Part shown: positions 42,569 through 50,254 of the stretch, in pieces
How positions within the stretch are numbered: the stretch's first letter is position 1
Layout: every line of letters starts with the position of its first letter
Source of the DNA: Xanthocytophaga agilis
GTDB lineage: Bacteria > Bacteroidota > Bacteroidia > Cytophagales > 172606-1
Assembly: GCF_030068605.1 (NCBI RefSeq)
Contig: NZ_JASJOU010000012.1
Location: 1 to 64,000 of the forward strand
Direction: 5' to 3'
DNA: 64,000 bases
Made by a program: the position numbers and the translations under genes
The notes under the pieces: model-generated
What the model was told of the DNA's origin: nothing
Databases searched by the model: none
Seen by the model: only the letters and a program-made list of their open reading frames with translations

Positions 42569-42816
42569 AGATATAAATGGTTAGCAAGAGTGAAACACAG
42601 GCAATATGCATGGTCTCATCCTCCCTGACAATTTTATTCAACCATTACCAGTATTGATTCAACCGTTTCCCATGAATATCTGCTCTCTAGAGAAGACATA
42701 TGCGTTAGAGGTTGTCTAATAAAGGCCAAACTATTGAATAAATACTTCCATTGGTTAAAAACATACTGGATATAGATAGTATTCTGGTTATTTTTACCCA
42801 TCTGAAATTATTGTTC

Positions 42817-43836
42817 ATGTCACGTAGTATTACCTCATTTCCTCTACACTGGATCCAGCTTATAGCCTGGCTATTGTTTTATTGTATCAGTGTACTCTAT
42901 CTTCTGCCTCAGGACCCTATCCATACTGCTCTCATTAATCCATTGGTATCTATCTCTTTTTACATAGTAATCATTTATGGTAATGCGTATCTTCTGATTC
43001 CCTGGCTGTATGAGAAACGAAAGCCAGGATACTATGCACTTGTCTTGTTTATATTCTTTGTAGCAGTGGTTAGCCTGCGTGTATTTCTATACCATGAACT
43101 ATATTTCAAGATCTGGAAGGAAAGCTTCTTTCAATATACTTTTGCACATATAGCTTATGCGGCATTTTCCACATTTCTGACACTCTGTATCAGCATAATT
43201 TTTAAGATAGCTCTTAATTATTTTGCTCTTCGAAAAGTCCAGGAAGAGCTTAAAGCAAAGCAATACCAGACAGAACTTAACCTCCTCAAATCACAGATAC
43301 AACCTCACTTTCTATTTAATACGCTCAATAATATTTATTATGAAGCCTACAAGGAATCTCCTAAAACTGCCTATCTTATCGAAAAGCTATCGGAGGTGAT
43401 GCGGTATTTTATAGATGATTGCCCGCAAGACTTAGTTCCTATCTCCAGAGAGATGCAGTTTATTCATCACTACATTGAGTTGGAAAAGATTCGGATGCGC
43501 TACCCAATACAAATAACTATCAATAGTAGTGTATCTACTGATTATCTCCTTCCTCCTATGCTTTTGATGCCCTTTGTCGAAAATGTATTTAAGCATGGTA
43601 TCAATAAAAAAAATGATACAAATGAAGTGGTGATCGAATTGATCGAAAAAGAACAAACACTCCATTTTACAGTAAGAAACACGTTGTTAAAGGAAACCAC
43701 TTTATCATCAGAAGGCGGGTTTGGCTTGCGCAATCTCAAGGATCGACTGGAACTGATTTTCCCTAACCGCTTTACACTTTCTGCCAAGGTATCTGACGAC
43801 TATTTTATTGCTTCACTTAGTATTCCTAAACCATGA
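42817..43836 (+). CDS. LytS/YehU-type sensor histidine kinase, first of two paralogues
   Basis: 340 aa. The ATG of MSRSITSF is chosen since it starts right before the first membrane helix. Four helices (about 10-150) are followed by the His_kinase domain PF06580 (LNLLKSQIQPHFLFNTLNNIYY, where H is the phosphoacceptor) and an HATPase with LLMPFVENVFKHGI and GGFGLRNLKDRL. It reads out membrane signals to the regulator that overlaps its end by 4 bp (ATGA). A second pair with the same layout lies 1 kb downstream. Confidence 0.93.
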   Translation: MSRSITSFPLHWIQLIAWLLFYCISVLYLLPQDPIHTALINPLVSISFYIVIIYGNAYLLIPWLYEKRKPGYYALVLFIFFVAVVSLRVFLYHELYFKIWKESFFQYTFAHIAYAAFSTFLTLCISIIFKIALNYFALRKVQEELKAKQYQTELNLLKSQIQPHFLFNTLNNIYYEAYKESPKTAYLIEKLSEVMRYFIDDCPQDLVPISREMQFIHHYIELEKIRMRYPIQITINSSVSTDYLLPPMLLMPFVENVFKHGINKKNDTNEVVIELIEKEQTLHFTVRNTLLKETTLSSEGGFGLRNLKDRLELIFPNRFTLSAKVSDDYFIASLSIPKP

Positions 43837-44534
43837 ATATTACCTGCCTGATTGTTGATGACGAGCCCAACGCAGTAAACCTACTGCAAGAATACATTCG
43901 TCAGATACCATTTCTTACACTTTCACATCAATGTTATGATGCTGCGGAAGTCCTGGAATACCTTCAAACACATCAGGTCGATTTAATCTTTCTGGATATC
44001 AATATGCCTGGTATCTCAGGAATGGAGTTAACAGAATTTTTATCTAAAGGACAAAAAATCATCTTCACAACAGCTTATACCCAATATGCTATTGAGAGCT
44101 ATGAAAAGAATGCAATTGATTACCTACTCAAACCCATTACATTCAAACGTTTCTCGCAAGCAATAGCCAAGTTGCACTCCGGTTATCTGTCAACAGGTAC
44201 CCCTCAAGTTAATTCTGATACCGATTATTTTTTTGTAAAGTCTGGCAAACAATTCCTCAGGCTTGAATATGATAGTATTTCATATTTTGAAGGCTGGAAG
44301 GAATATGTTTCTCTCTATACACAGGACAGCAAAATACTCGTCTATAAACGTATGAAAGAACTGGAAGACAGCCTCCCTGATTATTTTCAACGTGTTCATC
44401 ATTCCTATATCATTAATATTCATGCAATACATAAGATTGAAGATAACCATATTTACATTCAAGAGGTCCGTATACCTATAAGTGAGAAATACCGCACGGC
44501 ATTTATGCAGATAGTTCAGCAAAAGTTATTATGA
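43833..44534 (+). CDS. LytTR-family response regulator, first of two paralogues
   Basis: 233 aa. Receiver with IVDDEPNAV, phosphoacceptor Asp in IFLDINMPGISG, TTAYTQYA and KPITF; then a LytTR DNA-binding domain (FFVKSGKQFLRL, SISYFEGWKEYVSLY, YFQRVHHSYIINI, HKIEDNHIYI, IPISEKYR). The family binds DNA as a beta-type fold. It is translationally coupled to the kinase upstream. It closely resembles the regulator at 46694-47407. Confidence 0.95.
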   Translation: MNITCLIVDDEPNAVNLLQEYIRQIPFLTLSHQCYDAAEVLEYLQTHQVDLIFLDINMPGISGMELTEFLSKGQKIIFTTAYTQYAIESYEKNAIDYLLKPITFKRFSQAIAKLHSGYLSTGTPQVNSDTDYFFVKSGKQFLRLEYDSISYFEGWKEYVSLYTQDSKILVYKRMKELEDSLPDYFQRVHHSYIINIHAIHKIEDNHIYIQEVRIPISEKYRTAFMQIVQQKLL

Positions 44535-45544: not shown

Positions 45545-46654
45545 ATGTCGAAAAAAAAGGGGCTGTGGCCGAAAAAAAGGTGGAAGAGAGCAAAGTTTCA
45601 CGAACTTGACACATTGAAAATGCCCAAGATGAGACCTCCTTCTATCAATATAAAGCTGTTGCAATTCGCAGCCTGGATCATTTTATACTTATTTCTTATG
45701 CTTTATAGCATTCAGAAGTGGGAAGATTGGATGTATGGCCTTGCGCGAGCGTCCATTTATACTTTCTTTTATATTCTGGCTGTTTACACACAAAGCAACT
45801 GGCTTCTGACTGTCTACTTTCGGAGAGGGGTTTATACCAGATATATCATTGTGTCTCTCCTTATACTTATACTGTTAGTGACATTGCGGATGTTTACCGA
45901 ATATTGGGTACTGCATCTGAATCTGACGTATCACCAGTTTTATGGATTTAATCTGAGCCATTGGGCCTTTGTATTTGTCACTCAATTTCTAGCTTCGCTA
46001 TTTGGGATACTATTACGCATTGCAATGAACTATACCTGGTTATTGCAAACACAGGAAAAAATTCGCACACAGCAATTAATGGCAGAAATGAACTTGCTTA
46101 AATCACAGGTCCAACCTCACTTTCTATTTAATACGCTCAATAATATTTATTATCTGGCTCACAGTAAGTCAGAGAAGACCACCATCATGATTGCCAAGCT
46201 ATCGGATATGATGCGCTATTTTTTGGAAGAAGCTCCTAAAGAAAAGGTTCCTCTTTCTGTAGAGGTTGAGTTTATTAAGGATTATATTGAGTTAGAAAAA
46301 ATCCGGATACCTTATCCCGTACAAATAGAATTATGTCTGGATGGCTTAAAAGAAGAAGTCTTGGTTTCTCCTATGTTATTGATGCCATTAGTGGAAAATG
46401 TCTTCAAACATGGTATTGACAAAACACAATCGAAGAGCTGGGCAAAAATGAAACTGCATACTGAGACTAATTATGTCCGGTTTGAAGTTACTAATAGCCT
46501 TTGGCCTCAATCGTCCAACCCAAAAGGATTAGGACTGAAAAATCTCAAAAAACGCCTGGAAATGATTTATAATGAGACTTACACATTAACTATCCAATCT
46601 GATACAAGTCAGTTTACAGCTATTCTTCAGATACCTCTACTGAATTTCCAGTAA
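45545..46654 (+). CDS. LytS/YehU-type sensor histidine kinase, second paralogue
   Basis: 369 aa. It has the same plan as the kinase at 42817: four membrane helices (about 35-160), PF06580 with LLKSQVQPHFLFNTLNNIYY and HATPase with LLMPLVENVFKHGI and GLGLKNLKKRLEMI. The first 35 residues are unusually basic (MSKKKGLWPKKRWKRAK) and the ATG of MPKMRPPS at 45620 is an alternative start. The codons for the phosphoacceptor box are identical over 42 nt to those of the first kinase. Its regulator follows 39 bp later. Confidence 0.93.
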   Translation: MSKKKGLWPKKRWKRAKFHELDTLKMPKMRPPSINIKLLQFAAWIILYLFLMLYSIQKWEDWMYGLARASIYTFFYILAVYTQSNWLLTVYFRRGVYTRYIIVSLLILILLVTLRMFTEYWVLHLNLTYHQFYGFNLSHWAFVFVTQFLASLFGILLRIAMNYTWLLQTQEKIRTQQLMAEMNLLKSQVQPHFLFNTLNNIYYLAHSKSEKTTIMIAKLSDMMRYFLEEAPKEKVPLSVEVEFIKDYIELEKIRIPYPVQIELCLDGLKEEVLVSPMLLMPLVENVFKHGIDKTQSKSWAKMKLHTETNYVRFEVTNSLWPQSSNPKGLGLKNLKKRLEMIYNETYTLTIQSDTSQFTAILQIPLLNFQ

Positions 46655-46693
46655 AACCAATAACATACAAAACCTGTTTTTAATACACAAGAA

Positions 46694-47407
46694 ATGAAAA
46701 TTAAATGTCTGGTAATTGATGATGAGCCCCTCGCTGTTCAGTTATTGTGTGATTATATTGAACAAGTGCCTTTTCTAACTTTAGAGAAAACCTGCTACAA
46801 TGCAATGGAGGCTTTAGACTTTATGCAGCTTCACAAAGTAGATCTGATTTTTCTGGATATCAATATGCCTCATATTACAGGTATGGCATTTGCTGGTCTA
46901 CTTGATAAGCAGCAGAAAGTTATCTTTACAACTGCCTATACTGACTATGCGTTAGAAAGTTATGAAAAAAATGCAGTTGACTACCTACTCAAGCCCATCA
47001 CATTCGAACGATTCATGAAAGCAGTCACTAAGGTAGTTGCTCTTTCAAAAGACCCTTCTCCCGTTGCCTCTTCTATTGAGAGAGAAACAGACACAGAAAG
47101 TGTGTTTGTAAAAACAGGGAAGTCTGTTGTAAAAGTGGAATTGAAGAAAGTCCTGTACATTGAAGGATTAAAAGACTACGTTATTTTTTATCTAGATCAG
47201 GAAAAACATATTGTTTACAAACGTATGAAGGAATTAGAAGATATTCTCCCAGAATATTTTCATCGCATCCACAACTCCTATATTGTGAATGTTCATACCA
47301 TTCATAAGATTGAAGACAATCATATTTACATTCATGACATCAGACTGCCTATAAGCGAGAAATACCGTGTTACATTTATGCAGATAATTCAACAAAAATT
47401 ATTGTAA
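46694..47407 (+). CDS. LytTR-family response regulator, second paralogue
   Basis: 237 aa. Receiver (VIDDEPLAVQLL, FLDINMPHITG, TTAYTDYALESYEKNAVDYLLKPITFERF) plus LytTR domain (VFVKTGKSVVKVELKKVLYIEGLKDYVIFY, FHRIHNSYIVNVHTIHKIEDNHIYI). The last 45 residues differ from the first regulator at only about a dozen positions. It probably works with the kinase directly upstream, but cross-talk with the first pair is plausible. Confidence 0.95.
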   Translation: MKIKCLVIDDEPLAVQLLCDYIEQVPFLTLEKTCYNAMEALDFMQLHKVDLIFLDINMPHITGMAFAGLLDKQQKVIFTTAYTDYALESYEKNAVDYLLKPITFERFMKAVTKVVALSKDPSPVASSIERETDTESVFVKTGKSVVKVELKKVLYIEGLKDYVIFYLDQEKHIVYKRMKELEDILPEYFHRIHNSYIVNVHTIHKIEDNHIYIHDIRLPISEKYRVTFMQIIQQKLL

Positions 47408-48280: not shown

Positions 48281-49027
48281 CTACATGTAATTGAGATCGT
48301 TATTGGGTTTCAGCTTTATAATATGCACTGCATTAAAAAGAAGTATAAATGGATAGGCTGGGTCAAATTCGTGCCACTTAATACCAAAGTTAGCGCGACC
48401 TCCAAATTTGTGATGATTGTTGTGATAGCTCTCTCCGAACATTAGAAAGTCAAGAGGCAATAGGTTTTTAGCCGTATCATTCACTTTAAAGTTTACATAG
48501 CCAAACTTGTGAGCAAACCAGTTAATAATCGCACCATGTACAGGTCCCATCAGGTAATGGATAGGCAATAATAAAAACATCCACCAATGTGTAGCAAAAT
48601 GAATATAAAATAAAGTATAGAGTGTCCCCCAGGCAATACGACTTATCCACCGATCTCCCAGCCATTCCATAAACTTCCAATTAGGTACATTCTTAGTGAA
48701 CTTGGGATCTATATTAGCTTTTCCTGTAAGGATATCGTTGTAAATATTTTTTGTCTTCCACATCATATCAAACAAATTATCGGAATATTGAGGGGAGTGG
48801 GGATCTTTCTCTGTATCTGCATAGGCATGATGAAGGCGATGCATTACACCATAGGTATATGGACTCAAAAAAGACGATCCCTGCGAGATCCAGGTAAGAA
48901 CATAGAATGTTCGCTCCCAAAACTTGTTCATGGTAAACATCTGATGGGCTGCATACCGATGTAAAAAGAAAGTCTGAAAGAATAAGGATAAATACCAGTG
49001 GGCAATAAAGAAAATTAAAATTTTCAT
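48281..49027 (-). CDS. acyl-CoA desaturase-type membrane di-iron enzyme
   Basis: About 248 aa from the ATG of MKILIFFIAHW; a longer frame adds 25 unlikely residues. It has the three histidine boxes of stearoyl-CoA delta-9-type desaturases: HRYAAH, HRLHHAYADTEKDPHSP and SYHNNHHKFGG, plus membrane segments between them. It should introduce a cis double bond in fatty acyl chains at the membrane with O2. It is shorter than eukaryotic homologues and lacks a cytochrome b5 domain, so it needs separate electron donors. It lies next to the DES1-like desaturase on the same strand. Confidence 0.92.
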   Translation of the reverse strand: MKILIFFIAHWYLSLFFQTFFLHRYAAHQMFTMNKFWERTFYVLTWISQGSSFLSPYTYGVMHRLHHAYADTEKDPHSPQYSDNLFDMMWKTKNIYNDILTGKANIDPKFTKNVPNWKFMEWLGDRWISRIAWGTLYTLFYIHFATHWWMFLLLPIHYLMGPVHGAIINWFAHKFGYVNFKVNDTAKNLLPLDFLMFGESYHNNHHKFGGRANFGIKWHEFDPAYPFILLFNAVHIIKLKPNNDLNYM

Positions 49028-49156
49028 GAATAGGTAGATAAAAAGATCAGGATAATAATACGCCATAAAAGTAGAGTCTGCCTTCTGAAGAGATAATGAC
49101 AAATATCATGATCCAAAAAGATCATTCGCATCAAATCCTGTTTACGAATTCATCAC

Positions 49157-49231: not shown

Positions 49232-50254
49232 TTAATACTTTTGCAGTTGCTCCTCTGCTGATATTACCTGCAGGTCTGGTGTAGAATTATCACTTAATGT
49301 AACCTTACCTCTTTCTTTGCGCACTATTCGGGAAAATAAACTGACCTCCTGACTAAAAAGAAAGGTAAAAAACAATTTGGTAAAAGAAGTATGATACTTT
49401 AGGTTATCATAAAACTCAGGTGCAATAGACTTCAATTTAGGCAGGTTGTTCCAGGGAATAGAAGGCATATCATGGTGTTCGTTGTGATAGCCTACATTCA
49501 TATTCACTGTATTTAAAACCCCATAGTAGCTATAAGTCTCCTGATTCTTATCCAGTACCAGATAGTGCTCCTGAATCCAGCGTGCGCCTAGTGGATGTAG
49601 GCCTACCGAAAACAAAAAACTAGCTCCCAGATATCCTAATGCAGGCCATCCCCAGAAATATACAATCAAACCATCAAACAGAATCTGGCAAATAATGTTC
49701 ATAGCTACATACTTATCCACTGCTGCAAGTTCGATACAACGAAGTGTACGAATAGCCTGAAAAACAGGGAAGAATAACAACCAGATCATTTTTCCAATAA
49801 AATAATTGTTAATCAGCCGTGCTTCCCAATAATCTGGTAGATCAGCATCCAGTTCATGCACTCCCTGAAAAGCATGGTGCTTCAGGTGGTAATTTTTAAA
49901 TGAAATAGCTGTTGGGATAAGGGATGGAAAGTTGGCAATAATACCAGCTGCTACATTGGCCCAGGGCTTTCTGAATATAAGGTTATGTGCTGCTTCATGG
50001 ATACAAACGAACAATGTATGTACCGGAAATGCACCAATCAACCAGGCTGCTGCAAGTATGATATACCAAGGCTGGTCTTTAAGGAGATAAGCCATTACCA
50101 ATTGAATCCCTACGCATACCAGTATCCATACCATTGTTACTGGATTCTTCGAAATTAGCTTTTTTACTTCCGGATGTGACTTTAAAATTTGACGTGTACG
50201 AATACGATGAGGTTCTGTACCCGTTACATAAGTAAAATCTTTAGGAGAACTCAT
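49232..50254 (-). CDS. sphingolipid delta-4 desaturase (DES1)-like membrane enzyme
   Basis: 340 aa. The N-terminus (DFTYVTGTEPHRIRTRQIL, 6-24) matches the Lipid_DES segment of eukaryotic sphingolipid delta-4 desaturases. The histidine boxes are HEAAH (86-90), HLKHH (123-127) and HNEHH (257-261). The surroundings match remembered human DEGS1 closely: ISFKNYHLKHH, SVGLHPLGARWIQEHY, ETYSYYGVLN and NVGYHNEHHDMPSIP. It probably desaturates the sphingoid base of dihydroceramide-like lipids, with O2 and an external electron donor. Bacteroidota make sphingolipids, so a substrate exists; a different lipid is still possible. The adjacent gene is another desaturase. Confidence 0.85.
   Translation of the reverse strand: MSSPKDFTYVTGTEPHRIRTRQILKSHPEVKKLISKNPVTMVWILVCVGIQLVMAYLLKDQPWYIILAAAWLIGAFPVHTLFVCIHEAAHNLIFRKPWANVAAGIIANFPSLIPTAISFKNYHLKHHAFQGVHELDADLPDYWEARLINNYFIGKMIWLLFFPVFQAIRTLRCIELAAVDKYVAMNIICQILFDGLIVYFWGWPALGYLGASFLFSVGLHPLGARWIQEHYLVLDKNQETYSYYGVLNTVNMNVGYHNEHHDMPSIPWNNLPKLKSIAPEFYDNLKYHTSFTKLFFTFLFSQEVSLFSRIVRKERGKVTLSDNSTPDLQVISAEEQLQKY

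Follow-up and report, generated by a model that had tools for sequence, protein, structure and literature searches.

In animals, DES1 (DEGS1) places the characteristic double bond in ceramide, and eukaryotic relatives of this enzyme can also hydroxylate C4, a choice which the sequence does not decide. Flavocristamide A is a 4-unsaturated N-acylcapnine compound, and the acylhalocapnine of Salinibacter is an unsaturated analogue. Cysteate-C-fatty acyltransferase (CFAT) is described as catalysing the first committed step towards capnine sulfonolipids (PMC9304779, PMC10191378), and no sulfonolipid desaturation step is named in the accessible text of three papers on this pathway (CapB/SulA, CapC; PMC10191378, PMC11211663, PMC9304779). 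According to a review, sphingolipids were first discovered in bacteria that are mostly anaerobes (PMC10626005); bacterial bases may have been thought saturated because an oxygen-using desaturase could not work in such organisms. No bacterial DES1-like desaturase was found in the literature searched (mostly outside subscription journals, with the leading matches of large result sets).

We analysed a stretch of 64,000 nucleotides from Xanthocytophaga agilis (the window), for which a preliminary description had placed a DES1-type desaturase at 49232-50254, with the strand unstated. These coordinates match exactly one ORF, on the minus strand, and the plus-strand reading of the same interval contains stop codons throughout. 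The features are as follows.

49232..50254, minus strand: DES1-like desaturase gene, single ORF, 340 aa
50141..50245, minus strand: Lipid_DES (PF08557) N-terminal segment, residues 4-38, Pfam match
49985..49999, minus strand: histidine box 1, HEAAH, residues 86-90 (coordinates computed from the ORF)
49874..49888, minus strand: histidine box 2, HLKHH, residues 123-127 (computed from the ORF)
49565..49597, minus strand: HPLGARWIQEH stretch, residues 220-230 (computed from the ORF)
49472..49486, minus strand: histidine box 3, HNEHH, residues 257-261 (computed from the ORF)
48281..49102, minus strand: second desaturase, 129 bases downstream of the DES1-like gene, FA_desaturase 52 bits

Both Pfam domains lie far above chance in the 340-aa protein, Lipid_DES (PF08557) with 46.4 bits against a cut-off of 23 and FA_desaturase (PF00487) with 93.1 bits against a cut-off of 29.7, and the Lipid_DES match is the only one in the 9.77 Mb genome. 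Histidine box 3 sits within NVGYHNEHHD. The Lipid_DES-like N-terminus, the three histidine boxes and NVGYHNEHHD, all read earlier from the letters, are thus present by Pfam and ORF translation. Contamination is ruled out as the source of the gene: regional GC runs from 0.33 to 0.42 with no break at the gene, which lies within a 312 kb contig, and a protein of Xanthocytophaga flavus, the nearest named relative among the matches listed, is 98% identical.

The protein was compared with a provisional reference sequence of human DEGS1, checked by Pfam scores and not letter by letter. This reference scores 74.3 bits for Lipid_DES, which supports it without verifying each letter. Against this reference the DES1-like protein aligns end to end, with 39.8% identity over 322 columns. 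The likeness to DES1/DEGS1 comprises both Pfam domains, the three histidine boxes, a colinear whole length and about 40% identity to the provisional human reference, and the family assignment first made by eye was right. The genome holds five further FA_desaturase genes, of which four were compared pairwise with the DEGS1 reference, the neighbour at 48281-49102 being left out. Two of them align over 43 and 57 columns and two gave no match, so that a full-length match was found in none of these four.

With the membrane di-iron enzymes SCD1, AlkB, DesA and DesB, the protein has in common the FA_desaturase domain and a predicted fold matching AlkB and, more weakly, SCD1. It differs from this group in its scores for the NCBIfam equivalogs DesA and DesB (21.7 and 22.9 bits, far under their cut-offs of 500), and the four other genome desaturases differ from it by their want of a full-length match to the DEGS1 reference. 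The carotenoid models CrtW (40.9 bits, cut-off 350) and CrtR (22.9 bits, cut-off 475) also scored below their thresholds, and a PDB sequence search with the protein returned zero matches up to E=1. An AlphaFold2 model from 33 sequences (mean pLDDT 76.5, pTM 0.80) agrees with a membrane di-iron fold and is silent on the substrate. In VIA-align, where a Z of up to about 13 can reflect an arrangement common among helical proteins, the best matches were two chains of a Chlamydomonas motor complex, by title not desaturases (Z 14.7 and 13.2), followed by AlkB structures (Z 13.0 and 12.3) and mouse SCD1 (Z 4.6). The best matches in a viral structure library, giant-virus fatty-acid desaturases with TM-scores of at most 0.54, indicate no more than a shared fold.

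Conservation was examined in 157 bacterial sequences drawn from two collections, with some genomes counted twice. Histidine boxes 1 and 2, HNEHHD and the stretch [QH]ETxSYYG, the last also present in the human DEGS1 reference, are kept in 157/157. Ahead of the last box, 152 sequences have a stretch of HPLGARWIQEH type and five, all of family f43, one of HPLSGHFISEH type. The latter is the type of the provisional human reference, which has HPISGHFIAEH where the DES1-like protein has HPLGARWIQEH; the GARW-type stretch of 152/157 bacterial sequences thus stands as a difference from DES1/DEGS1. A role of GARW as a sulfonate-binding mark is ruled out, since the motif extends to carriers without CFAT (families f36, f54 and f62). 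As a separate observation, five bacterial proteins of the DES1-like type (L173-L177, from G473, G376, G542, G655 and G470) have the SGHF/AGHF motif known from the eukaryotic enzyme; they reach at most 48.7% identity to the human DEGS1 reference and are its closest bacterial kin among those examined.

A gene of this kind is no oddity in Bacteroidota. PF08557 occurs in 55/291 genomes of the order (12/115 genera) and in 41/392 genomes of a phylum sample (26/179 genera), with none in 14 control genomes, and a scan of named genomes gave at least 534 relatives; rarity is thus ruled out. The best 80 of these relatives include Xanthocytophaga, Arcicella, Pseudarcicella, Flectobacillus, Aquirufa, Sandaracinomonas, Spirosoma, Fibrella, Fibrisoma, Hymenobacter, Chitinophaga, Puia, Mucilaginibacter, Ferruginibacter, Saprospiraceae and others, together with one Acidobacteriota MAG contig. 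Carriage on mobile elements gained no support: phages and plasmids had no relative, and two pattern scans of viral contigs gave none either.

The gene neighbourhood was compared at 41 of the 55 carrier loci of the order (40 fetched plus the window; 14 were not fetched). Leaving aside frames overlapping the desaturase gene, these 41 loci show no gene within 4 kb that recurs in more than two genera, and an operon with sphingolipid genes is ruled out by this lack of a conserved neighbour. The second desaturase, for which the nearest NCBIfam model is the DesA family (114 bits, cut-off 400), does lie right downstream, as had been noted. The further suggestion of a small lipid-desaturation locus fared less well: the two genes adjoin in only 2/41 carrier loci, both of Xanthocytophaga. 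Elsewhere in the window, 42751-44534 and 45545-47407 read by eye, without a search, as two tandem pairs of a LytS-type histidine kinase and a LytTR-type response regulator, apparently duplicated.

Synthases of long-chain bases were sought elsewhere in the genome, as the preliminary description had proposed for spt-type genes. An SPT-like protein is encoded there (L007, G000:C2:64643-65659); its best PDB matches are the SPT structures 8guh and 3a2b (375 bits), and it scores 472 bits against NF047600, below the curated cut-off of 640. The genome also encodes a CFAT ortholog (P0003, G000:C3:12505-13770; 611 bits to PDB 28eh), an enzyme of sulfonolipid synthesis. Judged from ORF lists, without a family search, neither gene has evident lipid partners alongside. 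A 44-row tree splits into BioF-, CFAT-, Kbl- and SPT-type clades, the labels being checked on single members (Kbl above its cut-off; BioF as nearest model, below its cut-off; CFAT nearest to 7u7h and 28eh). Within it, the SPT-like protein falls on the SPT side (98/97), where its partners are three family f36 proteins (100/98); for f36-type proteins SPT is the best model, at about 500 bits, short of its cut-off. It may be noted that L007 groups with these f36 proteins and not with the order's own SPTs, a possible transfer.

Co-occurrence was scored with thresholds of E<=1e-130 for CFAT-type and E<=1e-125 for SPT-level matches, and of at least 470 bits for SPT in the order; divergent synthases may escape the models used. 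In the order sample of 291 genomes, SPT was found in 3/55 carriers and 22/236 non-carriers (Fisher p 0.44), and CFAT in 55/55 carriers and 211/236 non-carriers (Fisher p 0.006), the latter value being driven by a reduced-genome family, with kinship ignored. Twenty-three genomes of this sample have neither synthase, and none of them is a carrier. When all synthases at E<=1e-20 were collected from ten carriers of ten genera, CFAT-type proteins were present in 10/10 and SPT-type proteins in 0/10, and the rest were BioF- or Kbl-type. Eighteen named carriers were examined, some of them shared with the order sample; Flectobacillus is represented by a MAG of 3.7 Mb. All 18 show a match in the CFAT range (275-300 bits), with 13 fetched and confirmed by best match. 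An SPT-side protein occurs in six (Mucilaginibacter, two Chitinophaga, two Saprospiraceae and X. flavus), and the 12 without one include two Arcicella.

The phylum sample gives a different picture from family to family. SPT-level matches occur in 294/392 of its genomes, 18 of them above the curated cut-off. The CFAT comparison covered 80 hand-chosen genomes (36 carriers and 44 non-carriers). Carriers of the 'same class' group have CFAT in 10/10 and SPT above the curated cut-off in 8/10; those of family f43 have CFAT-level matches in 9/9, at 51-53% identity, and SPT-level matches in 9/9, below the curated cut-off; those of families f36, f54 and f62 have CFAT-level matches in 0/17 and SPT-level matches in 17/17. 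Non-carriers have CFAT in 24/24 of f43, in 0/12 of f36, f54 and f62 together and in 2/8 of the 'same class' group, these eight having been picked for SPT. The pairing with synthases is therefore a trait of families more than of the desaturase. In all, a CFAT-type or an SPT-level match is present in 91/91 carrier genomes examined. Since non-carriers largely show the same synthases, this co-occurrence looks necessary without fixing the substrate. A divergent alpha-oxoamine synthase of Arcicella aurantiaca (L280, G669, 816-2237), whose identity to the closest SPT-side protein is about 27%, was also observed, with relatives at 41-46% identity in 4/80 genomes hand-picked from the 291-genome order sample. 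As a missing long-chain-base enzyme it is ruled out, because matches at E<=1e-50 occur in 0/40 carriers and 4/40 non-carriers of that set.

On the sequence evidence, the DES1-like protein is probably a C4 desaturase of N-acylated long-chain bases, of ceramide or capnine type according to the lineage. As a membrane di-iron desaturase of the DES1 family, it would remove two hydrogens from C4 and C5, beside the C3 hydroxyl, of the N-acylated base, leaving an allylic alcohol like that of sphingosine. In Xanthocytophaga the base may be of sphinganine type, made by the SPT-like enzyme, or of capnine type, made by CFAT. Across lineages the family would serve whichever long-chain base the cell makes and would not be particular about the headgroup carbon, which is the simplest account because carriers have CFAT without SPT, SPT-level proteins without CFAT, or the two together, and none was seen with neither. 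We infer alike the action on any long-chain base, the C4 position, desaturation as opposed to hydroxylation, and the electron donor.

The narrower reading of a dihydroceramide delta-4 desaturase making sphingosine-type ceramide in this bacterium appears rather unlikely. The true ceramide-type bases foreseen in the preliminary description would fit the SPT-side enzyme of the genome, and SPT is also what the 'same class' carriers (8/10 above the curated cut-off) and the 17 carriers of f36, f54 and f62 have, the latter with no CFAT-level match; but the expectation is weakened by the order, where SPT is found in 3/55 carriers against 22/236 non-carriers, and by the presence of CFAT in the same genome. 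The enzyme of the genome itself falls under its curated cut-off (472 against 640), 52/55 order carriers are without an SPT match of at least 470 bits, the ten carriers of ten genera have synthases of CFAT, BioF or Kbl type throughout, and 12 of the 18 named carriers, which partly overlap the order sample, are without an SPT-side protein. Sphingolipids with a 4(E) base, reportedly described from Flectobacillus major and Arcicella by Batrakov in 1999 and 2000, count for the ceramide substrate. A sulfonolipid desaturase making 4-unsaturated N-acylcapnine may be entertained tentatively. As in the capnine pathway, a CFAT ortholog is present in the same genome and a CFAT-type match in 55/55 order carriers, mostly without SPT; CFAT also occurs in 10/10 'same class' carriers against 2/8 non-carriers chosen for SPT, and Salinibacter ruber is stated to have sulfonolipids of varying saturation (PMC2596770). 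However, CFAT is near-universal in the order, so that its presence tells little, and capnine as a family-wide substrate is excluded, because 17/17 carriers of f36, f54 and f62 are without a CFAT-level match; the GARW motif occurs in these carriers too.

Two other readings are less probable than either of these. It is improbable that the substrate is some other 3-hydroxylated lipid chain or a carotenoid and that the likeness to DES1 reflects common ancestry only. Neither neighbourhood nor co-occurrence fixes the substrate, and there is a weak similarity to CrtW; but that score (40.9 bits against 350), like the carotenoid models generally, is far under cut-off, and the Lipid_DES domain and the end-to-end similarity to the DEGS1 reference speak against this reading. 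Slightly more improbable still is a C4 hydroxylase, or a bifunctional DES2-like enzyme, giving phyto-type bases: DES1 and DES2 have fold and motifs in common and are not separable by sequence here, and no positive evidence for hydroxylation was met. The preferred reading remains the C4 desaturase acting on N-acylated bases of either type.

If Flectobacillus major does have the reported 4(E) base, the chemistry would be known and the gene would be the new part. F. major is a known sphingolipid producer, an aerobic member of the Bacteroidota that lives on the skin and gills of trout (PMC5155239). If the bacterial DES1 branch is common, many aerobic Bacteroidota may contain sphingosine-like bases or unsaturated capnine bases. 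Such a branch would also offer a bacterial model for the human DEGS1 enzyme, and it makes the origin of eukaryotic DES1 testable.

No placement among ordinary fatty-acid desaturases, the outcome that had been set against a DES1 enzyme, was obtained from the trees. With distant desaturases as outgroup, the outgroup branches were saturated and did not fall on one side, so that the rooted tree does not bear on the grouping either way. In an unrooted tree of 39 rows made with a careful method, the DEGS1 reference falls among the bacterial DES1-like proteins and joins L173, L174 and L177 of family f43 (100/99), a provisional placement because the sequence forms a long branch and no other eukaryote is in the tree; L173 shares 48.7% identity with it over 310 columns. 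The DES1-like protein lies on a branch apart from this eukaryote-like one, a further difference from DES1/DEGS1, and joins Arcicella rosea and G241 of genus g56 (99/95). It is 78% identical to the copies of G189 and G268, and the CFAT of Xanthocytophaga is 65% identical to theirs. In six further genera, the lead of the desaturase over CFAT in similarity does not exceed about 2 points, and in three the desaturase is clearly the less similar of the two. The nearest copies are those of Arcicella and Aquirufa. Because of the 78% against 65% identity and the 99/95 grouping, the comparison suggests that the Xanthocytophaga copy was exchanged with the Arcicella/Aquirufa lineage, and it speaks against a recent eukaryotic source of this copy. 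A wider picture may be sketched with considerable doubt: Bacteroidota would hold a large, little-noticed DES1 branch acting on any N-acyl long-chain base, in Cytophagales chiefly of capnine type, so that DES1 chemistry would extend beyond ceramide, and the eukaryotic ceramide desaturase would be a twig beside f43, pointing to an exchange between bacteria and early eukaryotes. One further copy, on a contig of a Thermoanaerobaculia (Acidobacteriota) MAG (L139), falls among Saprospiraceae and represents contamination or transfer.
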